Shown here one piece after another: positions 6,090 through 34,552 of a stretch of 35,001 nt of DNA. The notes under the pieces are model-generated. The model ran no database searches. It worked only from the letters and a program-made list of their open reading frames with translations, and was not told the origin of the DNA. Made by a program: the position numbers and the translations under genes. Numbering within the stretch: the stretch's first letter is position 1; each line of letters begins with the position of its first letter. Source of the DNA: Bacilli bacterium (GTDB taxonomy: Bacteria; Bacillota_I; Bacilli_A; RFN20; CAG-826). The stretch spans positions 1 through 35,001 of the forward strand of contig JAGCCQ010000012.1 of NCBI GenBank assembly GCA_017651565.1, written 5' to 3'.

Positions 6090-6118
6090 TTGACATGCGA
6101 ACTAATTTTTTGTAATAT
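6090..6118 (+). promoter_or_regulatory. Strong promoter of the rpmH operon
   Basis: A perfect -35 TTGACA (6090-6095) lies 17 bases before TAATAT (6113-6118), near-consensus for the housekeeping sigma factor. Transcription would start near 6125, about 22 bases before the rpmH ATG, with an AGGAGGT ribosome site between. Confidence 0.88.
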
Positions 6119-6146
6119 CTATTCGCTATGTATAGGAGGTCCTTTT

Positions 6147-6281: not shown

Positions 6282-6294
6282 TTTGAGGTAACTA

Positions 6295-6633
6295 ATGAAA
6301 GTTATTAATCGAATCAAAGATTCCAAAGACTTTGCTTCTACGATTAAACACGGTAAAACAGTAAAAAACCAATCTTTCGTATTACATTTCAATCAAACCG
6401 AATTAGATCATTCTAGAGTAGGTATATCCGTTTCCAAAAAGATTGGTAACGCTGTGACTCGTAATAGGGTCAAAAGACAACTAAGAGCGATGTGTGACTC
6501 TTTAATAAACTATAGCTTGAACAAATTCGATATAGTCCTCATCGCAAGACAAGATTTTTTGAATAAAAATTTTGAAGAAAATAAGTCGCTATTGTGCGAT
6601 TTATTGTTAAACCAAGTAGGTATAAAAAAATGA
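6295..6633 (+). CDS. rnpA: Ribonuclease P protein component
   Basis: Basic 112-residue partner of the RNase P catalytic RNA, which trims the 5' leader from pre-tRNA. The signature SKKIGNAVTRNRVKRQLR (the RNR motif) is intact near residues 47-64. A GAGGT ribosome site precedes the ATG. The TGA stop overlaps the yidC ATG (ATGA at 6630-6633), indicating translational coupling and showing that TGA is a stop in this genome. Confidence 0.97.
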   Translation: MKVINRIKDSKDFASTIKHGKTVKNQSFVLHFNQTELDHSRVGISVSKKIGNAVTRNRVKRQLRAMCDSLINYSLNKFDIVLIARQDFLNKNFEENKSLLCDLLLNQVGIKK

Positions 6634-8117: not shown

Positions 8118-8126
8118 GAGTACTCT

Positions 8127-8726
8127 ATGAACGAATATATTGGAAAAACAGTAGAGGAAGCATTAGCGAAAGCTAGTGAAGAACTCGGAACCCCTGTTGA
8201 AAACTTAATTTACTTAGTTACTGACAAAACAGCAGGAATTTTAAAAAAGAAAATTATCATTGAAGTCTACGATTTAGCAGACATCATTGAATATGCAGAA
8301 AACTATGTTTTAAAGGTATTAGATTCATTAGAAATCGAAAGTACAGTTAAATCAAAAATCGACGACGAAATCGTTAGAATCACAATCGATTCCACTCATA
8401 ATCCAATTTTAATTGGTAAAAATGGTAAGACACTTCAAGCTTTGAATGAAGTTGTTAAACTTGCAGTAAGCAATCATTTCCATAAGAAATTTAGAATTCT
8501 CTTAGACGTTAATGGTTATAAGGATAAGAAATATTATCACTTATCAAAAATGGCTAGAAGATTTGCTCACGAAGTTCAAAAAACAAAGACAACTTACACA
8601 TTTGATCCAATGAGTGCGGATGAAAGAAGAATTATCCACAACGCAATCAGTGGAATGCCAAATGTTCGTACAGAATCAGTTGGCGAAGGAACTCATCGTC
8701 AAGTTCAAATCATTTACGTTGATTAA
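8127..8726 (+). CDS. khpB: RNA-binding protein KhpB (Jag/EloR)
   Basis: 199-residue RNA-binding protein of the Jag family, which in Firmicutes works with KhpA and influences cell elongation and division. Three domains are visible: Jag-N (residues 1-45, IGKTVEEALAKASEELGTP), a KH domain (about 65-130, PILIGKNGKTLQALNEVV) and an R3H domain (about 135-199, DERRIIHNAI and GEGTHRQVQI). Immediately downstream of yidC as in most Bacilli, with a TAGGAG ribosome site. Confidence 0.95.
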   Translation: MNEYIGKTVEEALAKASEELGTPVENLIYLVTDKTAGILKKKIIIEVYDLADIIEYAENYVLKVLDSLEIESTVKSKIDDEIVRITIDSTHNPILIGKNGKTLQALNEVVKLAVSNHFHKKFRILLDVNGYKDKKYYHLSKMARRFAHEVQKTKTTYTFDPMSADERRIIHNAISGMPNVRTESVGEGTHRQVQIIYVD

Positions 8727-17776: not shown

Positions 17777-19228
17777 ATGAATTATATCGGAATTGATTTA
17801 GGCACGTCTTCAATTAAAGGCTTGCTCGTTACAGAAAAAGGCAAAATCTTAAACGAAGCATCATACATGTATGATGTCTCATATCCTGCTCCTAACTTCA
17901 GTGAACAAAATCCTGAAGATTGGATTAAAGGTTTAAAGTTCGTTTTAAATAAACTTTGCGATAACGTGAGAAACACAATCGGTGGTATCTCATTCGGTGG
18001 TCAAATGCACGGCTTAGTTATCTTAGATGAAAATGATAATATTATTAGACCATGTATTCTTTGGAACGATGGTAGAACTGAAGAAGAAACAAAATACTTA
18101 AACGAAGTTATCGGAAAGAAGAAACTTTCTGACTTAACTGCAAATATCGCTTTCGCAGGTTTCACTGCTCCAAAATTACTTTGGTTAGCAAAGAATGAAC
18201 CAGAAAACTTCAAGAAAATTAACAAGATTATGCTTCCAAAAGATTATCTTGTTTACTATTTAACAGGTAAATTTGTATCTGATTATTCAGATGCTTCAGG
18301 AACATTATTCTTTGACGTTAAAAACAAAAATTGGTCAGAAGAAATGTGCGACATTTGTGGAATTAAGCCTTCACAATTACCTCGTTTATGTTCTGGATTA
18401 GAAGTCGTTGGTAAAGTTAAAGAAAAATTCAATTTACCAAACGCAATTGTTTCTGCTGGTGCAGGTGATAACGCTGCTGCAGCTATTGGTACAGGAACTA
18501 TTTTTGATGGTTCATGTAACATCTCTTTAGGTACTAGTGGAACAGTATTTATTTCTTCAGATAAATTCGCTGTTGATAAAAATAACTCATTACATAGCTT
18601 TGCACATACAACAGGTAAATTCTCATTAATGGGATGTATCCTTTCTGCTGCTAGTGCTAACAAATGGTGGTTAGAAGATGTCTTAAGCACTGATGATTAT
18701 TCAGGTAGCGTTAGAGGCATGGAAGAAAAAATGGGCGAAAATACAATTTACTTCTTACCATATCTTTCCGGTGAAAGAAGCCCACACAACGATGTTAATG
18801 CAAGAGGCGCTTTTGTTGGTTTAGCTATTAATTCTACAAGACAAGAAATGTCTTTAGCAGTATTAGAAGGTGTTTCTTTCGCATTAAGAGATTGTGTTGA
18901 AATTGCTAGAAAAGAAGGCGTTGTTATTCCTAAGTCCACATTATGCGGTGGTGGCGCAAAATCTAGCTTATGGCAAAAGATTTTAGCTAACGTTTTGAAT
19001 ATGGATATCTGCTTATTAGAAACAGAACAAGGGCCATCATATGGTGGTGCTATGTTAGCTATGGTTGCTAATAAAGAATATCCAACTATTGAAGACGCAG
19101 TTAACGAATTAGTTAAAGTTAGAAAAGTTATTAAACCAGATCCAGAAATCGTTGCAAAATACGAAAAGAAATATCAAACATTCAAACAAATTTATCCAAA
19201 CTTAAAAGATATTTACAAAATTCTATAG
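17777..19228 (+). CDS. xylB: Xylulokinase
   Basis: FGGY kinase that phosphorylates D-xylulose to xylulose-5-phosphate, the second step of xylose use after xylose isomerase. Visible are the N-terminal GIDLGTSSIKGLLV, SFGGQMHGLV with the substrate-binding residues typical of XylB, CILWNDGRT, AGFTAPKLLWL, LPKDYLVYYLTG, DYSDASGTLFFDV and the C-terminal ATP-site GGGAKSSLWQ. Length 483 is standard. A strong AGAGG ribosome site precedes the ATG. No convincing promoter hexamers are seen in the 90 bases upstream, and xylA lies 4.7 kb away rather than adjacent. Confidence 0.96.
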   Translation: MNYIGIDLGTSSIKGLLVTEKGKILNEASYMYDVSYPAPNFSEQNPEDWIKGLKFVLNKLCDNVRNTIGGISFGGQMHGLVILDENDNIIRPCILWNDGRTEEETKYLNEVIGKKKLSDLTANIAFAGFTAPKLLWLAKNEPENFKKINKIMLPKDYLVYYLTGKFVSDYSDASGTLFFDVKNKNWSEEMCDICGIKPSQLPRLCSGLEVVGKVKEKFNLPNAIVSAGAGDNAAAAIGTGTIFDGSCNISLGTSGTVFISSDKFAVDKNNSLHSFAHTTGKFSLMGCILSAASANKWWLEDVLSTDDYSGSVRGMEEKMGENTIYFLPYLSGERSPHNDVNARGAFVGLAINSTRQEMSLAVLEGVSFALRDCVEIARKEGVVIPKSTLCGGGAKSSLWQKILANVLNMDICLLETEQGPSYGGAMLAMVANKEYPTIEDAVNELVKVRKVIKPDPEIVAKYEKKYQTFKQIYPNLKDIYKIL

Positions 19229-19237: not shown

Positions 19238-20386
19238 ATGAACAAAAAGTTGTGGTTAACTTTAGTTTCTGCAGCAGTATTAGGTCTTGCTGGATGTTCA
19301 AATGATTCACCAAAACCTGATAATGGAAAAAAACCAGACCCAGAACCAGAAGTGGAAGTAGATGAAGTTCCAGTATTTGTTTTGTCTGGCCAATCCAACA
19401 TGGAAGGAAGCACCAACTGGAGACTTAATGGTGAAAATCTTCTTAAGAAATACATGGAAGAACTTGGAGAAGATTATTCATTTGTCGACCCTGATGAAAC
19501 CAATAATACAGTTGACCAAAAGGCTACTAGAAAAGATGGAATTGAAAATGTTTTAACCACATATTATGGTTTTTATCATCCTAAAGGATGGACACAAGCC
19601 CACACAGCTTCATTGGATACAAGCACTCCTGAAGCTAGATTAACTCCAAATTTTAAACCTACTACAGTTGGAATGGGTGTAAGTGATGGCGACAAGGATG
19701 ATTTTTTTGGCCCTGAGGTAGGTTTAGCGTATAAACTTGGTAAAACATATAACGGGGAAGAACCAATTCATCTCGTAAAATGTGCATTTTCAGGTTCAGG
19801 ATTTAGCCAAGGTACTGTTAACTGGAGAAATTATCCTGATGAGTCAAAAACAGATGAACAAAATGCTAATTCATCCTTGTATTATTTATTGAAAAGATAC
19901 ACTGATAATTCTTTAAAAGTAATTGAAGACCAAGGCAAAAAACCTGTCATAAAGGGATTCATTTGGCATCAAGGAGAAAGTGATGCTGGCAACAAGAACT
20001 ACCAAACAGAAATGGAGGGTTTGATTGCTAGATTCCGTGATGATTACAAAGAATATGCTACTGATGGAGAAGGTGACAATATTGCATTCTTAGATTGCAC
20101 AATTTATGACGGTCCTCAAAGTCCTTATGGATCACAAGACGAAATAAATAACGGAATTAACGCTAGAAAGAATGCTATTGCAGCAAAAGGCCAATTGGAT
20201 CCTACTGATGCAAATTACGAAAAGAATTATATCGTTGATGGCACATTTACTGACCACGGACTTTCGTTAAAGATAGGTGATGCTGATAAAGGTGGGTATA
20301 ACACATATCACTACAATACTAAAGATGCATTTATCTTAGGTGAAGCTTACGCTGATATAATTCTTAACAATAATCTTTTAGATTAA
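19238..20386 (+). CDS. Secreted esterase lipoprotein (sialate O-acetylesterase/CE6-like)
   Basis: Cell-surface lipoprotein of 382 residues: signal peptide with lipobox GLAGC, a Pro/Glu/Asp-rich linker (about 24-44), then an SGNH-type domain. Catalytic blocks: FVLSGQSNMEGS with the nucleophile Ser, GFIWHQGESDAG, and a C-terminal His segment near YHYNTKDAFILGEAYAD. The SASA/CE6 families include acetylxylan esterases; removal of acetyl groups from xylan is the likely role here because it follows xylB by nine bases. Substrate is inferred from context. Confidence 0.85.
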   Translation: MNKKLWLTLVSAAVLGLAGCSNDSPKPDNGKKPDPEPEVEVDEVPVFVLSGQSNMEGSTNWRLNGENLLKKYMEELGEDYSFVDPDETNNTVDQKATRKDGIENVLTTYYGFYHPKGWTQAHTASLDTSTPEARLTPNFKPTTVGMGVSDGDKDDFFGPEVGLAYKLGKTYNGEEPIHLVKCAFSGSGFSQGTVNWRNYPDESKTDEQNANSSLYYLLKRYTDNSLKVIEDQGKKPVIKGFIWHQGESDAGNKNYQTEMEGLIARFRDDYKEYATDGEGDNIAFLDCTIYDGPQSPYGSQDEINNGINARKNAIAAKGQLDPTDANYEKNYIVDGTFTDHGLSLKIGDADKGGYNTYHYNTKDAFILGEAYADIILNNNLLD

Positions 20387-20442: not shown

Positions 20443-21366
20443 TTAAATGCCGTAAATTGACTTAATTTTCTCTGCTAGAAGATTAGCTGTTATTTCAGCT
20501 GCCATCTTTGTAAGGTGAACGCCGTCATTATTATCAGGTCTAAAAAGTTGATCATCGGTATATTTTTCGAATTCACTATTTAAATCTAATAAGTAACAAT
20601 TTAAGTCTTGTGCTAGTTGTCTTTGAAGCGGAACTACTTCATTGCATATTACATCACTAGGAATATTAAATTGATTAGGAGTTTTAGTTCTTGGAGAAGT
20701 CATCATAATAATATTTAAATCCTCTCCAAAAGTAGTGCGATATGTATTAACTAAATCTGTATAATCCTTAACATAATCGTTCTTTTCGTTTTCCCAGTTA
20801 GTTGCGTCGTTAGTACCTAATAAGATAGATAAAACGATAGGACTACCTGTTAATGAAGTTTGATATTGCTCTGTAGCGTTGTATGCGGGATTATACCGTC
20901 CAAAATCTTTAAATGAAGCGCCATTTTTTCCACAGTTGCTGACAGTGACTAAATGTCCACCTAAATTATCATCAATATAATTAGGATAAGATTCAGTTGG
21001 CCAACTGTGTCCTTCGGTTAATGAATCACCAACACAAGTAATTTGACCTTCAATAAGTTTGTTAACACTGATATCGACGTCAACAGAAAGACCTCTATAA
21101 CTAACAGTAATGCTATCTTGAGAAGCTTTTAAATTCTTTCCACCAGTAATAGCAAAGTCAGTTACTGTTGTTCTATTTCCTTCTTTGTCTGTGTAATCTA
21201 AAGTTAAACCTTCTTTGTCGAAATTATTTCCGGCGTTGTATAGAGTTTTATTTGGAAATGTAAGTATTGTTAAATATTCTCTTGGAGCTTTTTCATCGCT
21301 TCCGCCACACCCTACTAAAAGTAGGGCAGCAGATGCAATTAAGAGAGATTTACTTATTTTAAGCAT
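20443..21366 (-). CDS. SGNH/GDSL esterase lipoprotein with N-terminal Ig-like domain
   Basis: Secreted lipoprotein of 307 residues. Signal with lipobox LLVGC, a bacterial Ig-like domain at about 30-105 (LTILTFPNKTLYNAG ... ITGGKNLKASQDSITVSYRG), then an SGNH hydrolase. Block I is CVGDSLTEGHS with the Ser nucleophile, the Gly block is NCGKNG, the Asn block is LLGTNDATN, and the C-terminal Asp/His pair is in NDGVHLTKMA. Likely a carbohydrate esterase acting on acetylated or feruloylated xylan, by context. The start overlaps the GH43 end by 13 bases, so translation is coupled. Confidence 0.87.
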   Translation of the reverse strand: MLKISKSLLIASAALLLVGCGGSDEKAPREYLTILTFPNKTLYNAGNNFDKEGLTLDYTDKEGNRTTVTDFAITGGKNLKASQDSITVSYRGLSVDVDISVNKLIEGQITCVGDSLTEGHSWPTESYPNYIDDNLGGHLVTVSNCGKNGASFKDFGRYNPAYNATEQYQTSLTGSPIVLSILLGTNDATNWENEKNDYVKDYTDLVNTYRTTFGEDLNIIMMTSPRTKTPNQFNIPSDVICNEVVPLQRQLAQDLNCYLLDLNSEFEKYTDDQLFRPDNNDGVHLTKMAAEITANLLAEKIKSIYGI

Positions 21367-22796
21367 AATTTATAAGCGTCGAGCTTGCCTTTCATATCAG
21401 TGAATTTGATATAAACAGCATTTTTCTCAGTACCATTAACGATATTGAGAACGATTTCGCCCTCGCCTTTAATATCGAAATCAACGCTAGAAATAGCTTC
21501 GCCATTTTCTGCGTATTCGAGGATTGCTTTACCTTTTGCTTTTCCTTTAACTGCTAAAGCGACTTGTTGAGTTTTTCTTAAATCGAAATATTTATAACCC
21601 ATGAGTGCACCATCTTTGACGTTTTCGATATATTGAGTTTCAACTGTATCAGTATCTTTACCGGATTGAGTGATACACATTTTGCCTTTTTGCCATGGCC
21701 AACGGAAGAAGTTATAGAAGATATTTCCTTCTTTTGGCATTAAGCAGCAGCAGATACTTGCTGGGTATTCACCTTCACCTTTTAATGGTCCACCATTAAG
21801 ACCGCAAGATGTCATTTCAACTTGCTTGATTGAACCATCTTTTTCAATCTTGATTTCTTCAGCTAAACCTTGTCTATCTGTGTTAGTGAAGTTTGTGTGT
21901 CTGTGATAGAAAATATAGAATTTTCCGTTAGGCATGCAAGCGATACCACCATGGTTGTTACCGATAGGGTAGCAAGCATCTTTTTTAGCTCTACCATTTA
22001 AGCCAACATCGCCGTTAGAAACGATAGTGCCACCGAATTTGAATGGTCCCATTGGACTATCTGATGTAGCGTAGCATAATTCGTGTCCGTCATATGCGGA
22101 GTAAACGAAATAGTATTTTCCATTAATCTTTCTAATAGAAGAAGCTTCAAAAAATTCGTGTCCGTTCCATTCTGGGTCACATTCGCCTCTCTTGAAGAAA
22201 ATCTTCTTTGGTTCACCTTTAATAGTGACCATGTCTTTTTCTAATTCCATGACGTAACCGCCATCGATTTTGAAACCTTTAAATGTAATTTGTGGGAAGA
22301 ATGTAGTAGCACCGAAACCAGAGTATAAATAAACTCTTCCGTCATCATCAACTAAGACACCTGGGTCAAATTGGAAAACGTCGTGTTTTCTAGCACCTAA
22401 AACAGTGCCATCTGGGAAGTGGACGTGTCCAACAAATTTGAATGGGCCTGTAGGCTTGTCAGCAACTGCAACACCTGTATGACCAACCCAGTCAAATGCG
22501 TAATAAATATAATATTTTCCATCTGGGCCTTGGCAAACATCTGGTGCGTATAAATCGTGTTTATTCTTTTTGTTATCTGGATCTTCAGTTCTTAAAAGAA
22601 TTTCACCTTCATATCTCCAGTCAGATAAATCGTTTACTGGAGCTGACCAAGTAACATAGTTATTGTGGCAGAAATTGAATGCGCCGAATTGGTCGTGACT
22701 ACCATAAACATAAACACGATCACCAAAAACGTGTGGTTCACCATCAGGAATATATTCGTACAATGGTAAATAAGGGTTATAAACCTGTTTTTTCAT
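21354..22796 (-). CDS. Glycoside hydrolase family 43 (beta-xylosidase / arabinofuranosidase)
   Basis: Five-bladed propeller hydrolase, 480 residues. The three acidic residues of GH43 are placed by motif: YIPDGEPHVF near residue 18 (base), FDPGVLVDDDGRVYLY (pKa-modulating Asp), and HEFFEASSIRKINGKYYF (catalytic acid Glu). A C-terminal beta domain follows from about 370. No signal peptide, so it should cleave imported xylo- or arabino-oligosaccharides inside the cell. It is co-directional with the AraC regulator upstream. The ribosome site AGAGGT lies inside a hairpin (22797-22840). Confidence 0.9.
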   Translation of the reverse strand: MKKQVYNPYLPLYEYIPDGEPHVFGDRVYVYGSHDQFGAFNFCHNNYVTWSAPVNDLSDWRYEGEILLRTEDPDNKKNKHDLYAPDVCQGPDGKYYIYYAFDWVGHTGVAVADKPTGPFKFVGHVHFPDGTVLGARKHDVFQFDPGVLVDDDGRVYLYSGFGATTFFPQITFKGFKIDGGYVMELEKDMVTIKGEPKKIFFKRGECDPEWNGHEFFEASSIRKINGKYYFVYSAYDGHELCYATSDSPMGPFKFGGTIVSNGDVGLNGRAKKDACYPIGNNHGGIACMPNGKFYIFYHRHTNFTNTDRQGLAEEIKIEKDGSIKQVEMTSCGLNGGPLKGEGEYPASICCCLMPKEGNIFYNFFRWPWQKGKMCITQSGKDTDTVETQYIENVKDGALMGYKYFDLRKTQQVALAVKGKAKGKAILEYAENGEAISSVDFDIKGEGEIVLNIVNGTEKNAVYIKFTDMKGKLDAYKLCLK

Positions 22797-22864: not shown

Positions 22865-23842
22865 TTACTCGATATTTTTAGCAATTTTATATGCTTCAAG
22901 AACTTTAATAGATTCAGATGCTGAATAAATACTTTCTTTCTCTTCAGTAGTATATGTCTTAGTAGAAGAAGCACCGTCAGCAGACATATGTTCTTTTCTA
23001 TAAGCTTTTGGAGTACATCCAAATTTCTTAATGAACATCTTAGTCATATATTTAGGATCACTGAATCCTGATTCGTAAGAAATTTCTAATAAACTCTTTT
23101 CATTATTTTCCATTAAACGAATAGCGCTTTCCATACGTCTTAAGTTGACATATTCTTGGAAAGTAACTCCGAAGTAAGAAGAGAATAAGTGAGAGAAGTG
23201 GGTGACCGATAAGTCTTCTTCTGATGCGATATCTTCTAAACGGATGTGGTTAGCATAGTTTAAATCAATATAAGAAATAATTCTTTCTAATCTATTTGTT
23301 TTCTTCTTAATTTTTTCTTTTTCGATTTCACTAACGATTTCATGGTCTACATATTTATACAAATATGCCATAATTTGTGAAATCTCAGAAACTAATGTGA
23401 TCTGATAGTATTTTTCTTGTTTGAAATATGAAAGAGCAGAGTCAGTTAATAAATCGTTAACAATCTTAGCTCTGTCGCCTGGCAATACATCATTTAATTT
23501 AACAGACTTGAACATAGTGGTTCTAATCTGCGGGAAGTAGTTTAGTAAGAAGTGGTTAGAAATTTGGAGAATTAAGAAAACAGGACTATTTTCTAAATCT
23601 AGTGTTCCGTCCTCAAGTGGCATAGCTGAAATACTATGAATGTCATGTGAACCAATAAGATAAACATCGCCTTCTTCACACTTGCATTCAGCGCCATTAA
23701 TAGTAAATTGACCGTGTCCTTTGATTACCATTAAAAGTTCAAATTCTTTATGTAAGTGAGCGTTTCTAAAAGAAATCTCATTTACTAGAATTCTTATGTG
23801 GTTAATCTTAGGGAATTGGACTAACTCGAGTTGTTTACTCAT
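22865..23842 (-). CDS. AraC family transcriptional regulator
   Basis: Likely regulator of the xylan/xylose genes. The N-terminal half is a cupin-like sensor domain (HLHKEFELLMVIKGHGQF, EEGDVYLIGSHDIHS). The C-terminal half has two helix-turn-helix motifs (IRLEDIASEEDLSVTHFSHL and LLEISYESGFSDPKYMTKMF, ending FIKKFGCTPKAYRKE). About 40 extra residues follow the usual AraC end. The ATG at 23842 gives 325 residues; a TTG 21 bases upstream is in frame but lies over the predicted promoter. It has no visible ribosome site. It is divergent from xylA and co-directional with GH43 and the SGNH esterase. Confidence 0.92.
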   Translation of the reverse strand: MSKQLELVQFPKINHIRILVNEISFRNAHLHKEFELLMVIKGHGQFTINGAECKCEEGDVYLIGSHDIHSISAMPLEDGTLDLENSPVFLILQISNHFLLNYFPQIRTTMFKSVKLNDVLPGDRAKIVNDLLTDSALSYFKQEKYYQITLVSEISQIMAYLYKYVDHEIVSEIEKEKIKKKTNRLERIISYIDLNYANHIRLEDIASEEDLSVTHFSHLFSSYFGVTFQEYVNLRRMESAIRLMENNEKSLLEISYESGFSDPKYMTKMFIKKFGCTPKAYRKEHMSADGASSTKTYTTEEKESIYSASESIKVLEAYKIAKNIE

Positions 23843-23850
23843 ACATACAT

Positions 23851-23879
23851 ATAATACGCACAATAACGGAAAAACGCAA
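23851..23879 (-). promoter_or_regulatory. Promoter of the AraC-type regulator
   Basis: On the minus strand TTGCGT (23879-23874), a 17-base spacer and TATTAT (23856-23851). The ATG is eight bases beyond the -10, so the transcript may be leaderless. One arm of the inverted operator repeat covers the spacer and touches the -10. Confidence 0.55.
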
Positions 23880-23960: not shown

Positions 23961-25274
23961 ATGGAATATTTTGATTTTGTAAAAAAAGTAGTTTTTGAGG
24001 GCCCAGAAAGCAAAAATCCTTTTGCATTCAAGTTTTATGATCCAGAAAAAGTCATTCTTGGAAAGCCAATGAAAGAACACTTAAAATTCGCTATGGCTTG
24101 GTGGCACAATCTTGGTGCTGATGGAACAGATATGTTCGGTCGTGGCACAATTGACAAAAGTTTCGGCGTTGTCCCAGGTACATTAGAACACGCTAAAGCA
24201 AAAGTTGATGCTGGCTTTGAATTCATGACAAAAATGGGAATTAGATATTTCTGTTTCCACGATGTCGACTTAGTTCCAGAACAAAAAGACATTAATGATA
24301 CTAACAAGATGTTGGATGAAGTTAGTGACTACATCTTAGAAAAAGAAAAAGAAACAGGCATCAAATGTTTATGGGGTACTGCAAACTTATTCGGTAACCC
24401 AAGATACATGGCTGGTGCTGGTACATCAAATAGAGTTGATGTTTACTGTTTCGCAGCTGCTCAAATTAAGAAAGCATTAGACATCACTGTTAAACTCGGT
24501 GGTGAAAACTATGTCTTCTGGGGTGGTAGAGAAGGTTATGAAACTCTCCTCAACACAGATATGGGCTTAGAAGAAGAAAACATTGCTCAATTAATGAGAA
24601 TGGCAGTTGAATATGGTAGAAAGATTGGCTTAAAAGGCGACTTCTACATCGAACCAAAACCAAAAGAACCAATGAAACATCAATATGATTTCGATGCAGC
24701 AACATCAATTGGTTTCTTAAGAAAATATGGTTTAGACAAAGACTTCAAGATGAACATTGAAGCTAACCACGCTGAATTAGCAAAACATACATTCGAACAC
24801 GAATTAAGAGTTTCTAGATTAAACGGTATGTTAGGTTCAATCGACGCTAACGAAGGCGACTGTGTCTTAGGTTGGGACGTTGATAGATTCCCAGCAAACG
24901 TTTACACAGCAACATTCGCTATGTTAGAAATCTTAAAAGCTGGTAAGTTAAGCGGTGGCTTAAACTTCGATGCTAAGACAAGAAGAGCTTCAAATACTTA
25001 TGAAGATATGTTTAAAGCATACATCTTAGGTATGGATACATGGGCATTAGGTTTAATCAATGCTGCTAAATTAATCGAAGATGGCAGAATTGAAAAATTC
25101 GTTGCTGATAGATATTCAACATGGAACAGTGATCTTGGTAAAAAGATTAGAGCTGGTAAAGCTAACTTAGAAGAATTAGCAAAAATCGGCTGCGATCAAA
25201 AATACTTTGATGCTGAAAATAGTGGTAGAGAAGAAGAATTACAAGAAATTCTTAACTCTGTCTTATTCAGATAA
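23961..25274 (+). CDS. xylA: Xylose isomerase
   Basis: Converts D-xylose to D-xylulose in the cytoplasm with two divalent metals. Class II enzyme of 437 residues: [16 protein letters not shown], the catalytic His in [44 protein letters not shown], the metal ligands in [16 protein letters not shown] and [13 protein letters not shown], and [17 protein letters not shown]. An ACCGAGGT ribosome site precedes the ATG. Together with xylB it completes entry of xylose into the pentose phosphate pathway. Expression is probably governed by the divergent AraC-type protein. A terminator follows directly. Confidence 0.97.
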
Positions 25275-25386: not shown

Positions 25387-25991
25387 ATGAAAAAACTATA
25401 TTTGCTTTATCGTTGTTTTCATTACTTTTATGTGGGTGCAATAATGAGGAAGTAAAAAGCGGGGAAGAATTCAAAAGTGATAAACCTATTGTCGAAGAAA
25501 CAGATAGTAAAGAAGATATTGAGGCTGAGGAATATACCCCTTTATTAGCGGACTTAAATACATTTTCTTTTAATATAGATAATTCAGAACTAGGCAAAAT
25601 AAATCAAACATTTGAACATAGACAATTTACAGTTATTAGTGACGAAGAAACTTACAGTAATTTTAACACTACATTTAATTCATTACTTCAAGTCTCTAAT
25701 GAGAAAGATAACACTGAAATTAACTTACCTATAGTTGATTTTGCTAAACAAGATATCGCAGTTATTACTTATCATGAAGAAAACATAAAATCCTCTTTCG
25801 CCACAAGAATAAGTGGTTACATGGGTGGAGATGAATTAATTCTCAAGACAGTAGTGAAGTATGAAGAGGAAGGAGATTATTCTTCATTCGGAATTTTCTA
25901 TGCAGTATTAAAGAAAGATAAATATCATAGAGTTAGAGAAAATTATATTAACTTTGACGATCTTCCTTCAACTTATACTGCTGGAGCGTAA
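25387..25991 (+). CDS. Lipoprotein with apparent one-base frameshift in the signal peptide
   Basis: From 25413 the frame reads FSLLLCGCNNEE, the end of a lipoprotein signal, but has only a TTG to start from. The ATG at 25387, with a GGGGGA ribosome site nine bases upstream, is in another frame that stops after 22 codons. Between them is a run of six A (25390-25395). Adding one A to the run would yield MKKTIFALSLFSLLLCGC, a textbook lipoprotein signal. The mature part has an acidic linker and a beta-rich domain. That domain (LPIVDFAKQDIAVITY onward) vaguely resembles the PrcB C-terminal family; function unknown. It may be a pseudogene, a phase-variable gene or a sequencing artefact. Confidence 0.7.
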
Positions 25992-26074
25992 ACTATCATA
26001 ATTACTAATTAGAATAATTTTGTAAGTATTAACATTAGTTAATTATTTATATAAATTTAATATAAATAAGTGAT

Positions 26075-26097
26075 GGGCTACTTGATAGCCCTTTCTT
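26075..26097 (+). terminator. Terminator after the lipoprotein gene
   Basis: GGGCTA-CTTGA-TAGCCC (26075-26091) followed by TTTCTT. The stem is short but GC-rich. The rest of the 255-base gap to the GH3 start holds AT-rich sequence, a promoter and a structured leader. Confidence 0.6.
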
Positions 26098-26127
26098 ATA
26101 CCCCTAGCATTTCGCATAATTGTCGTT

Positions 26128-26156
26128 TTTACATTACACGTGAAAATTATTATAAT
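26128..26156 (+). promoter_or_regulatory. Promoter of the first GH3 gene
   Basis: TTTACA (26128-26133), 17 bases, then a perfect TATAAT (26151-26156). Transcription would begin near 26163, giving a leader of about 84 bases. Confidence 0.78.
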
Positions 26157-26168
26157 AATAAAGTATTT

Positions 26169-26241
26169 AACGCTTTTGAAAATCTCCTAATGAGTTTTTT
26201 GAGCGTTTTATTTGCGAAAAAAATAATGTCGCAAGAAAGGG
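26169..26241 (+). promoter_or_regulatory. Structured 5' leader of the first GH3 gene
   Basis: AACGCT (26169-26174) pairs with AGCGTT (26202-26207), with extra AAAA/CTC pairing inside, followed by TTTATTT. TTGCG (26212-26216) pairs with CGCAA (26230-26234) directly before the AAGAAAGGG ribosome site. The first is terminator-like, so attenuation or translational control is possible; no known riboswitch class was recognised. Confidence 0.45.
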
Positions 26242-26246
26242 AAAAT

Positions 26247-29237
26247 ATGGTTAAACCAAAACTATTTATGGGTTTGTCAGCCGTAGGTATTATGTTGACT
26301 ACTGTTCTTTTTGCTGGCCAAAAAGTAGCAGATGTTAAAGCGGGGCTTGTCAACGACTTTTTCGGACTTAATACTACTGAAATTGACGAAGTTAAATCAG
26401 ATTTAGTTGAAGGTTCAGCGTATCTTGATGCAAATGGCAAAATGTCAGCTGAGTCATGGTCAAGAATGTATGACGACTCAATGAAATTCTGTAGAGAAGC
26501 AGTTGAACAAGGATCTGTTTTAATTAAAAACGATAATGATTGTCTCCCATTAAAGAAAGATGAGAGAAAAGTTACATTATTCGGAACAGGATCTAAGAAC
26601 TTGTTCATGCGTTCTGGTGCTGGTGGTGCTGCACCTAACGAAGATAATGTAATCACAATGCTTGATGGATTCAAAGAAGCAGGATTCGAAGTTAATGAAA
26701 CTGTTTACAACAGTTATAAGGAATTTACTAGACAAGACTTAGCTAAACCTGCTACTGAAGTCGAAGAAGGTACATCAATTTATACACCTGAATTAACAGG
26801 TACTTTTGATGAATATAATGATGCTGCTATTGTCACTATTGTTCGTATTGGTACTGAAAACACTGATCCAAGTGCTGGAAATCTTGATCTCAGACAAAAA
26901 GAAAAAGATTTGTTAAAAATGATTAAAGATTCCGGTAAGTTCGACAAAATTATTGTTGTTATTAACTCACCATTAGCAATGTCTATGGATTGGATTGAAA
27001 ACGATGAATATGGAATCGACGCAGCTATTTTTATGGGCGTTCCAGGATACTATGGTGTTCAAGGTGTCGCTGATCTTGTTGCTGGTTTAGCAAGCGATCA
27101 AACAACACCAATCGATGCATGTGGACATGCTCCTGATACATTCGCTGCATCAGCAAGTTCTTCTGCTGCATATCAAAACTTTGGTAATAGTAACGTTGTT
27201 GTCTATAAAGAAGGCGTTTATGTCGGCTATAAATACTATGAAACTAGATATGAAGACTGCGTTTTAAGTCAAGGCAACGCAAATGGTTCAAAGGGTATTT
27301 ATAATTCGCAAAATAATTCTTGGAATTACGCTGATGAAGTTGTTTGTCCTTTTGGATATGGTCTTTCATATACAACATATACTCAAAAAATCACAGGTGT
27401 TGAATTTGATGCAGAAAAAGACCAATACTTAGTCTCAGTTGATGTTACAAATACTGGCAATAGAGTTGCTAAAGCTTCTGTCCAAGTTTACGTACAACAA
27501 CCTTATACAGAATTCGATAAGACTAATGGCTTAGGTAGATCCGCTATTGCTCTTATGAACTATGCAAAAGTTGACGTAGGTATCGGAAAAACAGTTTCTG
27601 TTACAGTTCCTGTTGATAGATATTTCTTAACAACATATGATTACAAAGTTAATAAGAAATATATGCTCGAAAAAGGTGACTATTACTTCTCAGTAGGTAA
27701 TGGTGCACACGAAGCACTTAATAATATTATCGGTGTTAAATCTCCATCAGCAGTATTAACTGATCAATGGGGCAAATCATACACTGCTAACGCTGATGCA
27801 GTTTACAAATTCAATATTGCTGAAGATGATTTAACAACATATGCAAATTCTATTTACGATAGTAATATAGCTGTTACTAACCAATTTGATGATGCAGATT
27901 ACAATTACTACGCACAAAAGAATTCAAAAGATCCAATTACTTATTTATCAAGAACTGACTGGGAAGGAACTTGGCCTACAACAACAACAGCTTCACCAAC
28001 AGCAGGCACTGATAAAGATATGTCTAAGAAGTACGATCGTACTGAAACAGTTCCTAATATTAAATCAGATGATTATGATGGTAAAGCTTACAATGTAACT
28101 TACAAAAAAGCTGATGGAACCCCATACTTAATTAAATTTGCTGATATGGTTGATGTTCCAATCGAAGGAACTGTTGAGAAAGGTATCTTTGAAGGTCAAG
28201 ATGGTGCTGAAATTTGGGACGCATTCGTCAAACAAATGACTATCGAAGAATTAAAGATTTCTGTTTCTGATAACCGTGGTATTCTTGATGTTGGCAGACT
28301 TGAAAAAATCGGTAACTCAATTGCTGAAGGTCCAGAAGGAATTCTTGCTAAATTCAAAATTGGTAATACTCAATTATGGGCAACTGGTTTCCCAACTGGC
28401 CCTACATACACAGGTACATTTGACCATGAAATGCAAAAGAAATTTGGCGGATTCTTTGGCGAAGAAGCTTTATATTGTGGTGTAGCATGTATCAATGCTC
28501 CTGGTTGTAACATTAATAGAACACCTTATGGTTCACGTGCTTCTGAATATATGACTGAAGATGGCGTTATGAACTACTTATGTGCTGCTAACGTTGTTGG
28601 TGAAGCAAGAAGAAAAGGTTTGATTATGAACATTAAACACTGTTTCTTAAATAACCAAGAAACAGGTAGACAACGTGTTGAAACTTATTGTAATGAACAA
28701 GCTATCCGTGAAATTTACCTCAGACCTTTCGAAGGTGCATTAACTAAAGGTAAAGGTTTAGGCATTATGACTTCTTATAACAGAATTGGTGCTACTTATG
28801 CAGCTTGCCATAAGCCATTAATGGAGAATGTTATGAGAGGTGAATGGCATTATAGAGGACAAATTATCGATGATGCTTTAACTGGTAGTAATGATTCTGA
28901 TTATTCAAACGGTCCTGCAATGTTATATTGTGGTACTGATATCTTCTGTCTTGATGGCGGTCGTGGTGATCAATTAGTCAACTGGATTACTAGCCGTAAT
29001 GACTTAGGAACAGTTAAAGATTTACAAAGAGCTAACAAATATATCATGTATTCTATGTCAAGATCTTGGTTAGGTGGTTATACACCAAAAGCTGAAGACT
29101 TCGAAAAACCAGCTTGGGCAAAAACTATCGATGGCTTAGTCATCGCTAGCTCTATTGTTACTGGTTTATTAATGGCTGCTTACGTAGTTTTCGAAGTTTT
29201 AGATAAAATGAAAAAACCAGCGGCGGTAGCTGAGTAA
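26247..29237 (+). CDS. Glycoside hydrolase family 3 with swapped domain order, membrane-anchored
   Basis: 996 residues, exported: an N-terminal hydrophobic signal or anchor (about 5-24) and a C-terminal membrane helix (about 962-984). The alpha/beta-sandwich domain that is normally C-terminal comes first (about 80-290, acid/base candidate Glu204 in GTENTDPS). The fibronectin III-like domain follows (about 350-480), and the TIM-barrel catalytic domain comes last (about 620-940, with K797-H798 and a nucleophile in IIDDALTG, D875/D876). This permuted order is known for a few Ruminococcus and Butyrivibrio beta-glucosidases. Beta-xylosidase activity is inferred from the locus. The ATG at 26247 was chosen for its AAGAAAGGG ribosome site; upstream in-frame starts run through the leader and promoter. 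Confidence 0.88.
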   Translation: MVKPKLFMGLSAVGIMLTTVLFAGQKVADVKAGLVNDFFGLNTTEIDEVKSDLVEGSAYLDANGKMSAESWSRMYDDSMKFCREAVEQGSVLIKNDNDCLPLKKDERKVTLFGTGSKNLFMRSGAGGAAPNEDNVITMLDGFKEAGFEVNETVYNSYKEFTRQDLAKPATEVEEGTSIYTPELTGTFDEYNDAAIVTIVRIGTENTDPSAGNLDLRQKEKDLLKMIKDSGKFDKIIVVINSPLAMSMDWIENDEYGIDAAIFMGVPGYYGVQGVADLVAGLASDQTTPIDACGHAPDTFAASASSSAAYQNFGNSNVVVYKEGVYVGYKYYETRYEDCVLSQGNANGSKGIYNSQNNSWNYADEVVCPFGYGLSYTTYTQKITGVEFDAEKDQYLVSVDVTNTGNRVAKASVQVYVQQPYTEFDKTNGLGRSAIALMNYAKVDVGIGKTVSVTVPVDRYFLTTYDYKVNKKYMLEKGDYYFSVGNGAHEALNNIIGVKSPSAVLTDQWGKSYTANADAVYKFNIAEDDLTTYANSIYDSNIAVTNQFDDADYNYYAQKNSKDPITYLSRTDWEGTWPTTTTASPTAGTDKDMSKKYDRTETVPNIKSDDYDGKAYNVTYKKADGTPYLIKFADMVDVPIEGTVEKGIFEGQDGAEIWDAFVKQMTIEELKISVSDNRGILDVGRLEKIGNSIAEGPEGILAKFKIGNTQLWATGFPTGPTYTGTFDHEMQKKFGGFFGEEALYCGVACINAPGCNINRTPYGSRASEYMTEDGVMNYLCAANVVGEARRKGLIMNIKHCFLNNQETGRQRVETYCNEQAIREIYLRPFEGALTKGKGLGIMTSYNRIGATYAACHKPLMENVMRGEWHYRGQIIDDALTGSNDSDYSNGPAMLYCGTDIFCLDGGRGDQLVNWITSRNDLGTVKDLQRANKYIMYSMSRSWLGGYTPKAEDFEKPAWAKTIDGLVIASSIVTGLLMAAYVVFEVLDKMKKPAAVAE

Positions 29238-29250: not shown

Positions 29251-30585
29251 ATGAATAAAATTTTAGATAGTTTAAAAAATTTCTTTAAGAATAAATCAAT
29301 TGGTTACTTCATTTCCGCAGCCGGATGTTTACTTGCATTTATCTTTGCAATTATTTATATGGCTACTTATGAATCAGCAATTGGTAACAACGCTTCAGGT
29401 TTCGTTCCTGAATCAGTTGGAATCTTCTTATTCGCTGGTGTAGTAGTTAACATTGTTTTACTTGTTTTGCCACAATATGGTTTTATCAACTGGATTGTTA
29501 TCTTATTCTACGGATTAGCTCTTTATAAGCAAATCTTCTTAGTCCCAGACTTCTTTGCTGGTTTAGCAACTGGTATTGAATACAATGGTGGTGACGCAGG
29601 TCTTAATATTTTCTACTTAATCGCTTTATTAATTATTGTTATTATCGCAGTTGTTACTACATTCTTAGGCTATTATAAAAAGGCTGAAGAGAAAGATGCA
29701 GATTTCAAAAATGTTAAAGGCGTTGTTCCACTCGCAAAAATCGGCGGTGGTGCAGGTCTTATCCTTATCGCTTCTTTAGTTTCTTGCTTAGTCGTTTATA
29801 ACTTAAGTAATGTTGTCATTCCTGTATATGCTTTCAACCCTATTACTGAAGAAATTAAAGCTTTAGCAGCAGAAAAAGATACAGGTTTTGATCCTGCAAG
29901 CAAAATCTATGCAAAACAAGAAACATACGATTTTACAACAGCAGAATTTACTGCTATTTCTAATGGTGCTTCAACTAGAGAAGGCCATAACTTAGTATAT
30001 TTATTCGAAGGTGCTTATTCCGAAGGTTATCAAGGTCAATACAACGAATATTATTGTAACTTATGGTTATGGGATGATGGATATTTTACAGGAAAATCCC
30101 ACAATCAAACTTTCAAAGGTTATTGGTTTAACGACTTTGATGGCGATGGACAAGCAGACAACCTCAAGATGGTTTCAAATTCTGAAAAGTATGCTTCAAT
30201 CGAATGTACAAAATCACAAGGATACTACAACTATCAAGCATATATTTATATGCATCCAGGATGGGGCGATGGTCGTTCAATGCCAATCGCTGGCTACTTA
30301 TATTACGATGCAATCGCGTTAGCTATTGATACAAAAGATTTCCCTGTTTATAAAGTTGGCCAATCATTCACAACATCTAACTGGGAAGTTAACCGTATTC
30401 TTCAAAACTTAAATTATGGTTCTATCTTCAATATGCCTGATGGCGATGATCCAAAAATGAAAATTAAATGGACATTACCTGAAGATTTACTTGATAAAGA
30501 AAAGAAACTTGCAAAAGCAGGCGAATTCGAAATCAAAGCTGAATGGGGCGGACTTGAAACTAGCGTCACAATTACAGTCAAGTAA
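29251..30585 (+). CDS. Multi-pass membrane protein with outer module shared with the second GH3
   Basis: 444 residues, 13 bases after GH3 with an AAGGAGGT ribosome site, so co-transcribed. The first ~190 residues hold about five membrane helices (SIGYFISAAGCLLAFIFAII, VGIFLFAGVVVNIVLLVL, an INWIVILFYG segment, IFYLIALLIIVIIAVVTTFL, GAGLILIASLVSCLVVY). From residue 196 (NPITEEIKALA) a predicted outer region begins with EGYQGQYNEYYCNLWLWDDG, IYMHPGWGDGRS and a final Ig-like beta domain (AEWGGLETSVTITVK). The same module, about 250 residues, ends the second GH3 (from residue 981). Likely a membrane partner of GH3, perhaps for substrate binding; the function is unknown and no family was recognised for the membrane part. 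Confidence 0.8.
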   Translation: MNKILDSLKNFFKNKSIGYFISAAGCLLAFIFAIIYMATYESAIGNNASGFVPESVGIFLFAGVVVNIVLLVLPQYGFINWIVILFYGLALYKQIFLVPDFFAGLATGIEYNGGDAGLNIFYLIALLIIVIIAVVTTFLGYYKKAEEKDADFKNVKGVVPLAKIGGGAGLILIASLVSCLVVYNLSNVVIPVYAFNPITEEIKALAAEKDTGFDPASKIYAKQETYDFTTAEFTAISNGASTREGHNLVYLFEGAYSEGYQGQYNEYYCNLWLWDDGYFTGKSHNQTFKGYWFNDFDGDGQADNLKMVSNSEKYASIECTKSQGYYNYQAYIYMHPGWGDGRSMPIAGYLYYDAIALAIDTKDFPVYKVGQSFTTSNWEVNRILQNLNYGSIFNMPDGDDPKMKIKWTLPEDLLDKEKKLAKAGEFEIKAEWGGLETSVTITVK

Positions 30586-30624
30586 TTTAAACGAAGGTAT
30601 ATTTTAAAATAAAATAATAAGGAG

Positions 30625-30668
30625 ATGCCTCTTACGACAGCCGTTTTGTTGTAAGAGGCATTTTTATA
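30625..30668 (+). terminator. Strong terminator after the membrane protein gene
   Basis: ATGCCTCTTAC (30625-30635) / GTAAGAGGCAT (30651-30661) is a perfect 11 bp stem, extendable to 15 bp with one G-U pair, then TTTTTAT. Confidence 0.93.
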
Positions 30669-30775
30669 TGAAAAATTCATTTCTTCTCAAACATCGTGAT
30701 TATGACATAATATCAATAAAGAAAAATGAGCGTTTTTTTGAGAAATAAATGTCTTATAAGTGAAAGAGATTTATG

Positions 30776-30856
30776 TTAGGGGGGCTTTCATAAGTCAATA
30801 TTATGAAGAAACTTTTAAGGGGGTTATGTAGATAGTCAATACTATTGAAACTTATT
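30776..30856 (+). repeat. Imperfect ~41 bp tandem duplication in the leader of the second GH3
   Basis: Two successive copies each have a TTAGGGGG-like G run (30778-30784; 30818-30823) and GTCAATA (30794-30800; 30835-30841), followed by an ATG and basic codons. The first copy's ATG (30803) opens a ten-codon frame (MKKLLRGLCR) ending in TAG. The real start at 30857 has no ribosome site close by; the second G run lies 33 bases away. Confidence 0.6.
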
Positions 30857-33800
30857 ATGAAAAAGAAGTTACTTGTATTATCATCGTTTTTACTTGCGTT
30901 AGGTGTGGTCGGATGTTCTGGTCCTAGAGAAGAAAATACACCAATTATTGATGGTGGAAATAGCGATGGAAATGATGATGGAAAAAATGAAGGCAATGGT
31001 AATGTAGATGATAGTGGCAATCATGATGATGATGGTTCATCTACTCAACCAGCCATAAATAGAAAAGCTCTTTCAGACTATGCTGATGATAATGGAGAAC
31101 TCTCTGATGATGGTTGGAAGAGAATGATTAAAGACTCCTATAAGTTCTGTGAACAAGAAGAAGAACAAGGAGCAGTTCTCTTATTTAATAAAGAAGTTAA
31201 TGGTAGAAAAGCTCTTCCGTTGTTAGCTAATGAAAGAAATGTTTCGTTGTTCGGTCAAGGGACAAGAAAAATGTTCCTTCGTTCCGGTACTGCTGGTGCT
31301 GCTCCAAATGATAGATTAGTTATTGATCTAGAAAAAGCATTTGAGACTAATGGCTTTAATATTAACAAAACGTTGTTAAATTTGTATGCAACAGGATACA
31401 TCAGTAGTCCTGCTAGTAGCTACGAGGCAAACCCTAATATTTACACAGATGATGTAAAGGCAACATTCGCTAGTTACAACGATGCAGCAATTATTACTTT
31501 AGTTCGTGCTGGAACAGAAAATGCTGATCCTAGTATGGGTAGCTTAGAACTTTCTTCAAATGAAAAAGAAATGATTAGAATCATTAAAAATTCTGGAAAG
31601 TTTAATAAAATTATTTTACTTCTCAACTCTCCAATGCCTATGTCCATGGATTGGGTTGACAGTCAAGAATATGGCGTAGATGCCGCTCTTTGGATTGGTA
31701 CTCCTGGATATTATGGTAGTGCTGGTGCAGTACACGTTTTAATGGGTAAAGATGGAGATGGAAAACCACTCTCTCCTTCTGGACACTTATGTGATACTTT
31801 CGCAGCTAAAGTTGAGTCTGCTCCAGCAATGGAAAATTTTGGTAATACTAACGTTGTCGTTTATAAAGAAGGGATTTATGTTGGTTATAAATACTATGAA
31901 ACTCGTTATGAAGATTTAGTTCTTAACCAAGGCAATGCAAATTCTAATAAAGGCGCTAAGATGAACGACAATTATTGGAACTACGCAAACGAAGTCGCAG
32001 TTCCATTTGGATATGGTGAATCTTATACAACATTTGATTCTAGAATTACTGGTGTTAATTACAATAGAAATACAGACCAATATGAAGTAGAAATTGAAGT
32101 TAAAAATACGGGTTCAATGGATGCAAAATATTCTGGCCAAGTCTATGTACAACAACCATATACAGATTTTGATAAAGCAAACAGAATTGAAAAATCTGCA
32201 ATCTCTTTAATGGGCTATGATAAGGTTGATGTTAAAGCTGGCGAAACTAAAAAATTCGTAGTTAATATCGATAAATATTTCCTTGCATCCTATGATTATG
32301 TAGTTAATAAAAGATATTTCATAGAAGGTGGAGATTATTATTTCGCAATTGGTAATGGTGCACATGAAGCACTTAATAATATTCTTGCACTTAAAGCTCC
32401 AAATGCTTCTTTAGTTGACCACAATGGTAATCGTGTTACCGGTGATGTTAACTGCGCTAAAAAAGTTGTCATGCAAGAAGATGTAATTACATATGCAAAG
32501 TCTCATTATGACGCTAATGTTGACGTAACAAATAAGTTCGATGATGCAGATTACAACTATCATGCAAATTTGAACGGTGAATCTAAAATCACATACTTAA
32601 GTAGAAAAGACTGGGATTTAACTTGGCCTACAACAACAACTAATTCTCCTGCTACTACTAATGATTTAGATATGTCAAAACTTTATGCAACTACATCTCA
32701 AAACAAAGGTTTTTCCGCTGCTGAAGGAACTGAATATAATGTTCGTGCTCAACTTAATGGTAGAAGCACATCCATTACTTTTGCTGAAATGGCTCTTGTT
32801 CCATTAGAAGGTACAGTAACTAATGAAAATAGTAGATTCAAAGGTATGGAAGGTGCGGATGTTTGGGATATGTTCATCAAGCAAATGACACTTGATGACC
32901 TTATAATTTCTGTTTCGGATAATCGTGGAATCTTATCTGTCGGAAAGGCTGAAAAACCAGCGAATTCTATATCTGAAGGATCTGAAGGTCTTCTTTCCAC
33001 ATTCAAGTATGGTGATAAGAGATGGGCAACAGGTTTCGCAACAGGTAGTGTCTATACATCTACTTGGGATCATGAAATGCAAAAGAAATTTGGTAGTTTC
33101 TATGCTGAAGAAGCTTTGCATTGTGGTGTTAACGTAGTAAACGGTCCTGGCGCAAATATTGTTCGTACTGCTTATACATCACGTGCTTCTGAATTTATGT
33201 CTGAAGATAGTATGTTGAGTTATAACTGTGCTGCTAATATTGTTGGCGCAGCTAGACAAAAAGGTTTAGTAATGAATATTAAACATGCATTATTAAATAA
33301 CCAAGAAACAGGTAGACAATATTTACAAACTTATTGTAATGAACAAGCTATCCGTGAAATTTATTTAAGACCTTTCGAAGGAGCTTTAACTAAAGGTAAC
33401 GCATTAGGTGTTGCAACTTCTTTTAACAGAATCGGTGCTACTTATTCAGCTTGCCATAATAATTTAATGAATGGTGTTATGAGAGGCGAATGGCATTATA
33501 ATGGCTTAATCATTGATGATGCTTTAACAGGCAGTAATGTTTCTAACTATTCTAATGGTCCTGCTATGTTACATAATGGTACAGATATCTTCTACCTTGA
33601 TGGCAATCGTGGAAATCAATTAGCTTCTTATGTTAAACAGAATGATGATTTACAAGTCGTAAAAGATTTACAAAGAGCAAATAAATACATTATGTACGCT
33701 TTATCTAGATCTTCTTTAGGTCTTAATATGAATAAAGAAGCACTGGTAGAGAATCTAAATACTGGAAATCCAGTCAGTGGAACAATTCAAAAAACTAATC

Positions 33801-34552
33801 CAATCACTGATCAAATCAAAGCACTCGCAAATGCTAAAGAATATAATTTTGATCCTACACAAGTGCACTTCAAAAAATCTGATTTAGCAGGTATTGATGG
33901 CGATTTCGATTTCAATAGTTCAGAAGTTACTTCACTTCCAACTAATGGAAATAGAGATGGTGTAAATATTGTTTATAAGTTTGAAGGTTCATACACTGAA
34001 GGCTATCAAGGCCAATATAACAAATATCATGCTAACTTATGGTTGTGGGAAGACGGCTTATTTGCAGGAACTTCTTATAGAAATACAGTACGTGGATATT
34101 GGTATGATTCCGATGAAAATAATGAAGGAAATAAATTAATATTAGTTACATCAAATGACGCTGATGGTCTAATTATTACTACAGATTCAAATGGATTCTA
34201 TTCTAAACAAGCTGTCATTTATTTGCATCCAGGGTGGGGAGATGGCCGTTCAGTTTTGATTAATGGTTATATGTATTATCCTGATGTTGCGTTATTCATT
34301 GATACTGGAGATACAAACGTAAATAACTTAACAGCTGGTTCTACTCTTGATATCAATGCTTGGTCAGCACAAAGAGTAATTAAGAACTTAAAATATTCTG
34401 CTTGCTATGAAGATGATACAAATGTAGTCACTTGGAAAGTTAACGGTAACGCAATCGATAATGGAATTATCAACTTAAGTAGTGCTGGCACATATGTTGT
34501 CACTGCTACTTGGGGTGGATTAACTGGTAGTGTTTCACTTATAGTTAAATAA
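30857..34552 (+). CDS. Glycoside hydrolase family 3 lipoprotein with swapped domain order and C-terminal shared module
   Basis: 1231 residues, exported lipoprotein: lipobox VVGC (Cys20), then a D/G/N-rich linker (about 35-65). It is paralogous to the first GH3 along its length: sandwich domain with Glu221 in GTENADPS, fibronectin III-like domain, then TIM barrel with K809-H810 and IIDDALTG (D887/D888). Instead of a C-terminal membrane helix it continues from residue 981 (NPITDQIKALA) into the module found on the membrane protein, with EGYQGQYNKYHANLWLWEDG and YLHPGWGDGRS and a final Ig-like domain. Several DNA stretches are almost identical to the first GH3 (e.g. around 33330-33390), indicating tandem duplication. 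An upstream in-frame TTG (30845) would add four residues before the signal. No clear promoter was found. Confidence 0.88.
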   Translation: MKKKLLVLSSFLLALGVVGCSGPREENTPIIDGGNSDGNDDGKNEGNGNVDDSGNHDDDGSSTQPAINRKALSDYADDNGELSDDGWKRMIKDSYKFCEQEEEQGAVLLFNKEVNGRKALPLLANERNVSLFGQGTRKMFLRSGTAGAAPNDRLVIDLEKAFETNGFNINKTLLNLYATGYISSPASSYEANPNIYTDDVKATFASYNDAAIITLVRAGTENADPSMGSLELSSNEKEMIRIIKNSGKFNKIILLLNSPMPMSMDWVDSQEYGVDAALWIGTPGYYGSAGAVHVLMGKDGDGKPLSPSGHLCDTFAAKVESAPAMENFGNTNVVVYKEGIYVGYKYYETRYEDLVLNQGNANSNKGAKMNDNYWNYANEVAVPFGYGESYTTFDSRITGVNYNRNTDQYEVEIEVKNTGSMDAKYSGQVYVQQPYTDFDKANRIEKSAISLMGYDKVDVKAGETKKFVVNIDKYFLASYDYVVNKRYFIEGGDYYFAIGNGAHEALNNILALKAPNASLVDHNGNRVTGDVNCAKKVVMQEDVITYAKSHYDANVDVTNKFDDADYNYHANLNGESKITYLSRKDWDLTWPTTTTNSPATTNDLDMSKLYATTSQNKGFSAAEGTEYNVRAQLNGRSTSITFAEMALVPLEGTVTNENSRFKGMEGADVWDMFIKQMTLDDLIISVSDNRGILSVGKAEKPANSISEGSEGLLSTFKYGDKRWATGFATGSVYTSTWDHEMQKKFGSFYAEEALHCGVNVVNGPGANIVRTAYTSRASEFMSEDSMLSYNCAANIVGAARQKGLVMNIKHALLNNQETGRQYLQTYCNEQAIREIYLRPFEGALTKGNALGVATSFNRIGATYSACHNNLMNGVMRGEWHYNGLIIDDALTGSNVSNYSNGPAMLHNGTDIFYLDGNRGNQLASYVKQNDDLQVVKDLQRANKYIMYALSRSSLGLNMNKEALVENLNTGNPVSGTIQKTNPITDQIKALANAKEYNFDPTQVHFKKSDLAGIDGDFDFNSSEVTSLPTNGNRDGVNIVYKFEGSYTEGYQGQYNKYHANLWLWEDGLFAGTSYRNTVRGYWYDSDENNEGNKLILVTSNDADGLIITTDSNGFYSKQAVIYLHPGWGDGRSVLINGYMYYPDVALFIDTGDTNVNNLTAGSTLDINAWSAQRVIKNLKYSACYEDDTNVVTWKVNGNAIDNGIINLSSAGTYVVTATWGGLTGSVSLIVK

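Follow-up and report, generated by a model that had tools for sequence, protein, structure and literature searches.

In the window, the whole 35,001-nucleotide stretch of DNA analysed here, a GH3 gene is followed by a gene for a 444-residue membrane protein bearing an outer module, and we lean towards the view that the two genes encode a surface GH3 unit acting on a xylan-type glycan, in which the outer module works in trans and is probably carbohydrate-binding. The gene pairing, predicted topology, module homology, link to one GH3 clade, active-site signature and locus context that bear on this view were computed directly. Three open frames are concerned, 26070-29237 (GH3), 29251-30585 (membrane protein) and 30845-34552 (a fusion of a second GH3 with the module), and they and their surroundings contain the following features:

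26247..29237, + strand: inverted-order GH3 (GH3_C - Fn3 - GH3_N), membrane helix at each end (Pfam, hydropathy, start of relatives)
29136..29192, + strand: C-terminal membrane helix of this GH3 (hydropathy)
29251..29685, + strand: four-helix membrane unit, residues 1-145 of the membrane protein (HMM matches, neighbourhoods)
29722..29811, + strand: fifth membrane helix (TM5), residues 158-187, leading to the outer module (helix of the predicted model)
29836..30582, + strand: outer module, membrane-protein copy, residues 196-444 (helices H5-13 and H36-39, nine-strand meander, Ig-like end)
30343..30582, + strand: Ig-like terminal domain of the module, Big_3/LigB-like, start approximate (Foldseek 2mog, prob 1.00, TMt 0.59)
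30625..30661, + strand: probable intrinsic terminator, ATGCCTCTTAC...GTAAGAGGCAT followed by TTTTAT, separating the fusion gene from the two-gene unit before it (read by eye)
30857..34552, + strand: lipoprotein GH3-module fusion with lipobox LGVVGC and without C-terminal helix
33797..34549, + strand: outer module, fusion copy

ATG 26247 (MVKPKLF...) is the probable start of the first GH3, rather than GTG 26070, with which the mechanical ORF begins, because relatives of this GH3 begin with that N-terminal helix. Hydropathy puts the helices of this GH3 at ORF residues 65-83 and 1023-1041; the 444-residue protein has at least five helices, and the fusion nothing beyond a signal/lipobox segment. 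The initial annotation had described the first GH3 as a module-free enzyme with a C-terminal membrane helix, paired with the membrane-protein gene, and the fusion as a lipoprotein. Both descriptions hold: the paired genes are 13 nt apart, with GGAGG ahead of the second ATG as a good ribosome site, and the fusion has a lipobox and lacks the C-terminal helix. The fusion gene is probably a transcription unit of its own, set apart by the hairpin and T-run at 30625-30661, which was identified by eye and has a loop longer than our hairpin scan permits. The GH3 parts of the two genes are 56% identical. A 192-residue lipoprotein-like ORF (25413-25991), with no family match, lies between XylA (see below) and the first GH3, and positions 1-8726 of the window resemble a replication-origin region, with gyrB, a recF-like gene, dnaN and dnaA (minus strand) facing yidC, jag and mnmE (plus strand).

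The two modules of the window align end to end over about 250 residues (41% identity, E=1e-68), and the motifs attributed to both sites at the outset, NPIT(E/D)(E/Q)IKALA, EGYQGQYN, NLWLW(E/D)DG and HPGWGDGRS, were all found. A third copy (G000:C72:259-1023; 48% identity) lies outside the window on another contig, as a free-standing 327-residue lipoprotein. The claim that the module belongs to no established family was borne out by searches of Pfam, NCBIfam and PDB sequences. None of 14 members reached a Pfam cut-off, the best reported match being Big_3 (0.0067, in three of the 14), and no NCBIfam match was obtained. Two antibody chains among the PDB sequences (E 0.005-0.006) were dismissed as chance, and a profile search of the PDB with the module gave nothing useful. 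The initial annotation had also proposed a structural check. An AlphaFold2 model of the ectodomain, made with 35 relatives (pLDDT 93.7, pTM 0.87), begins with a helix, continues as a nine-strand β meander and ends in an Ig-like domain. Neither the full-length model nor the ectodomain had a Foldseek match in the PDB at E<=1e-3, and the matches among viral structures are to Ig/BIG2-type domains. The Ig-like end has a confident fold match but stays under the Pfam cut-off in sequence; its likeness to the terminal Ig domain of LigB (2MOG), a spacer-type domain, covers only the C-terminal ~80 residues, the last third of the module. The core, a nine-strand meander that was compared with the closed 8-stranded barrel of the calycin/NHBA type, gave weak Foldseek matches to the β-strand meander barrels of the NHBA C-terminal domain and the TbpB C-lobe (6CUJ, 2LFU, 5KKX; prob 0.38-0.93), but with TMt 0.23-0.37, rmsd 5.5-9 Å and E 0.04-0.2, so that relatedness is not demonstrated. 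The many conserved aromatic residues reported for the module were recovered, with about 15 positions kept in at least 70% of 35 modules; glycines are also widely conserved in this alignment, and the aromatics may be core residues.

Of the 279 genomes of the order, 39 carry the module family, as 38 full genes for the four-helix unit plus module (4TM+module) and one split gene. It was absent from our samples of the class (395 genomes) and the phylum (392 genomes), and from plasmids and viral contigs. Weak matches in the long surface proteins of L088 hit just the Ig-like repeat and were set aside. Divergent module-like lipoproteins are encoded at L022:4156-5052, adjoining a GH3/4TM-module pair, and at L037:8558-10003, with no GH3 seen nearby. 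Some 4TM+module proteins are longer (688-713 residues; L031:5489-7594, L032:9207-11273, L033, L035 and L094) and end in an extra domain of about 250 residues that has no Pfam match.

The 444-residue membrane protein is composite, a four-helix unit that matches no Pfam family being followed by TM5 and the module. In G158 (L104) the gene is naturally split at the fifth helix, so that the four-helix part and the TM5-module part are separate proteins. Searches with a profile built on the full-length membrane protein further showed that its first ~145 residues occur alone in relatives, as proteins of about 140-150 residues. Such solo units adjoin an inverted-order GH3, on the same strand and either 3' or 5' of it, in 32 of the 34 loci read, all found with the membrane-protein profile, so that GH3 played no part in their selection. 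Conversely, a four-helix neighbour accompanies about half of the membrane-bound GH3s that were examined. All 33 genomes read have the 4TM+module gene immediately 3' of a GH3 and in its orientation, in keeping with the proposed link between the module and GH3 enzymes. The constant partner of the GH3 is nonetheless the four-helix unit, the module being an optional outer attachment of that partner, because many GH3s of the group have the unit without the module. One four-helix protein (L072:6376-6804) has no GH3 neighbour and is found beside ABC transporter, acyltransferase and LRR genes. A literature search for a membrane partner of GH3 found no papers.

Pfam places GH3_C (1.4e-22), the Fn3-like domain (2.7e-8) and GH3_N (3.5e-13) of the first GH3 at residues 150-387, 471-544 and 771-958, respectively, a permuted order of the GlyA1 type, and the domains of both window GH3s exceed the gathering cut-offs. 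The C-terminal helix is present in 28 of 30 module-linked GH3s and missing only in two fusions. In a FastTree phylogeny of 107 rows, all module-linked GH3s form one clade of 32 (28 with 4TM+module, two fusions, one fragment and one split case; support 100) on a long stem, and the neighbour of this clade consists of module-free, four-helix-linked GH3s. Module and GH3 distances are correlated (r=0.93, 28 pairs), a figure to which shared species history contributes. At L021:4379-7399 and L102:1753-4827 a GH3 of the module clade is in two ORFs, through an assembly error or as a real pseudogene.

When aligned to TnBgl3B, the clade, both window GH3s included, keeps the Asp nucleophile, the Glu acid/base and the Lys, His and Arg. 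All 32 clade members (32 of 32) have Glu for Asp58 of TnBgl3B, a position at which the partners without a module have Asp or Asn; Asn-Phe is replaced by Ala-Ser, also in 32 of 32; and in 31 members Asp takes the place of the Ser/Thr before the nucleophile (Asp-Asp for Thr-Asp). Judged from this alignment, the -1 subsite of the module-linked clade is rewired, and the predicted active-site motif is also unlike that of canonical β-xylosidases. The position of Asp58 is presumably that of the -1 Glu of β-xylosidases. In crystal structures of GH3 β-xylosidases this Glu touches O4 of xylose at subsite -1 (PMC8913315). Two such enzymes, PcBxl3 and TrXyl3A (PMC8913315), presumably share the Glu where TnBgl3B has Asp58, but differ from the window GH3 in having the classical domain order, in being soluble/secreted and in the motifs around the Arg and the nucleophile. 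Scores against the NCBIfam β-xylosidase equivalogs NF052329, NF041776 and NF041579 (103.6, 88.4 and 60.9 bits) are under the cut-offs of 1050, 1250 and 1350; these models have the classical order, which puts the cut-offs out of reach for a permuted protein.

The genes upstream of the GH3 include:

17777..19228, + strand: xylulokinase XylB (TIGR01312, 547 bits against a cut-off of 380)
19238-20386: SASA esterase
20443-21366: GDSL/acetylxylan-esterase-like gene
21354..22796, - strand: GH43 enzyme, adjoining the GDSL/acetylxylan-esterase-like gene
22865..23863, - strand: AraC-family regulator, upstream of the GH3 (relatives 38-53% identical)
23961..25274, + strand: xylose isomerase XylA (TIGR02630, 652.8 bits against a cut-off of 533)

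With XylA and XylB above curated cut-offs and GH43 and esterases in the window, the xylan/xylose setting recognised earlier stands. Of 24 module loci, 20 had a relative of the AraC regulator nearby, as against none of 33 four-helix/GH3 loci lacking the module (Fisher p=9e-12, a value that overstates independence because the loci are related, the module loci having also been read over slightly longer stretches, on average 13.7 as against 11.3 kb). XylA (7/24 vs 0/33), XylB (4/24 vs 0/33) and GH43 (5/24 vs 0/33) were likewise confined to module loci. Most of the module loci read have AraC but neither XylA nor XylB within about 7 kb. The GH3 may have β-xylosidase activity, to which the -1 Glu and the xylose locus point indirectly. 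A different glycone for this clade, such as an arabinoside or a glucoside, with the xylose genes as chance neighbours, appears rather unlikely. It would accommodate the low frequency of XylA at module loci, active-site changes unlike those of canonical families, and best NCBIfam matches that are far under cut-off and mixed (arabinopyranosidase, β-glucosidase, xylosidase); the XylA/XylB/GH43 association, however, was seen at none of the 33 module-free loci and turns up again in three of the order's families, and the -1 site has Glu as in β-xylosidases.

Under the preferred reading of a two-gene surface unit, the GH3, in the order C-Fn3-N, would be tethered to the membrane's outer side by helices at both ends, beside a co-transcribed partner made of the four-helix unit and a fifth helix bearing the outer module. 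The module would act in trans, keeping chains or oligosaccharides of the xylan type close to the exo-acting GH3, and the pentoses released would feed XylA and XylB. Here we infer contact between the GH3 and its partner, xylan as the substrate and sugar binding by the module. The conserved aromatics speak for such binding, and the lack of a CBM family match and of a clear Foldseek relative speaks against it. Other GH3s of the order (L184-L191, 1637-2057 residues) have the layout GH3-TM-loop-TM followed by outer domains with CBM6/35-like, CBM-like and Big_3 matches; since these long single chains set binding-type domains beside the GH3, they provide the best indirect argument for the module as a binding accessory. 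The GH3-module fusions and the split four-helix and TM5-module genes of G158 are what one would expect of parts that can be separated yet work together. It is conceivable, though we hold this only tentatively, that the locus exemplifies a general undescribed class in Bacilli, in which a permuted GH3 is held in the membrane at both ends, the four-helix subunit is an interchangeable mount for outer binding modules, the present module is a new carbohydrate-binding family, and a genus-level fusion is turning enzyme into binding protein.

Alternatively, the membrane protein could be a subunit that helps the GH3 to assemble or stay stable, acting as its dedicated chaperone or docking partner in the membrane; the module would then pack on the enzyme, or serve as its spacer across the cell wall, and would not bind sugar. 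The four-helix unit as constant partner, module or not, the module evolving in step with the GH3, the long stem of the module-linked clade with its clade-specific active-site changes, and an Ig-like end typical of spacer domains would all suit such a subunit. We nevertheless consider it unlikely: three module copies are solo lipoproteins (G000:C72, L022 and L037), two of these have no GH3 seen beside them (L037, and L038 at a contig edge), so that the module can exist without a GH3 neighbour, and GH3s elsewhere fold without a subunit of this kind (GlyA1, PMC5104943). A surface sensor, with the module detecting xylan products and signalling to the adjacent AraC regulator, would explain the AraC genes at module loci but is very improbable, as the protein has no cytoplasmic signalling domain (about 20 residues separate helix 4 from TM5), the AraC proteins have an AraC_binding/cupin domain of their own for ligands, and the four-helix unit also accompanies GH3s without an AraC regulator.

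The initial annotation had pictured a two-part system and a one-part version side by side. Fusion and pair do lie side by side in the window, but the fusion is not a general one-part version: it was found only in this genus, in the window and in G001/L020, that is in 2 of 39 module-bearing genomes, and the idea of a widespread one-gene alternative was therefore rejected. In the module tree the modules of both fusions, of both membrane proteins and of the solo lipoprotein of this genus group together (93/93), so that they arose by local duplication; in the fusion gene, a duplicate at the level of the genus, the module has been attached straight to a lipoprotein GH3. In the fusion of the sister species (L020:8022-11624) the nucleophile Asp is replaced by Ser and the His of the catalytic-site KH motif by Asn, so that this protein is probably inactive and likely a pseudoenzyme, whereas the window fusion keeps both residues and has Phe in place of Tyr210. 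Given its restriction to two genomes, local duplication and the loss of the nucleophile in the sister species, the fusion is best seen as a derivative and not as an equivalent one-gene version, and it is perhaps moving toward a binding role.

The closest known systems are the permuted GH3s, GlyA1 (PDB 5K6L; PMC5104943), BrGH3A (PMC11233000) and the P. barengoltzii enzyme (5WUG), the last being the best PDB match of the window GH3. They share with it the order (α/β)6 sandwich - Fn3 - (β/α)8 barrel, the catalytic residues and an association with gut Firmicutes. The window GH3 differs in its helices at both ends, a segment of about 150 residues between Fn3 and barrel, the rewired -1 subsite predicted above and the membrane partner; a word search of PMC5104943 and PMC11233000 found no mention of a transmembrane segment. 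The C-terminal CBM6/35-like domain of GlyA1, as well as the outer domains of the long GH3s of the order, resemble the module in being accessory β-rich outer domains next to a GH3, but the module has no CBM family match and sits on a separate membrane protein, not on the enzyme chain.

CBMs normally sit on the enzyme chain. Here a membrane subunit distinct from the enzyme supplies the accessory domain and follows a single GH3 clade through many genera, and two unannotated families beside GH3 enzymes, the four-helix partner and the module, can now be named. The order, with module, module-free and CBM-array versions, offers a set of naturally occurring variants with which to test what accessory domains and membrane mounting contribute to exo-glycosidases of small-genome gut Bacilli. 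A marked expansion of GH3 was observed in G109, G115, G087, G099, G108 and G116, with about 9-20 GH3 matches each, some of them pieces of one gene, in genomes of 1.3-1.9 Mb.
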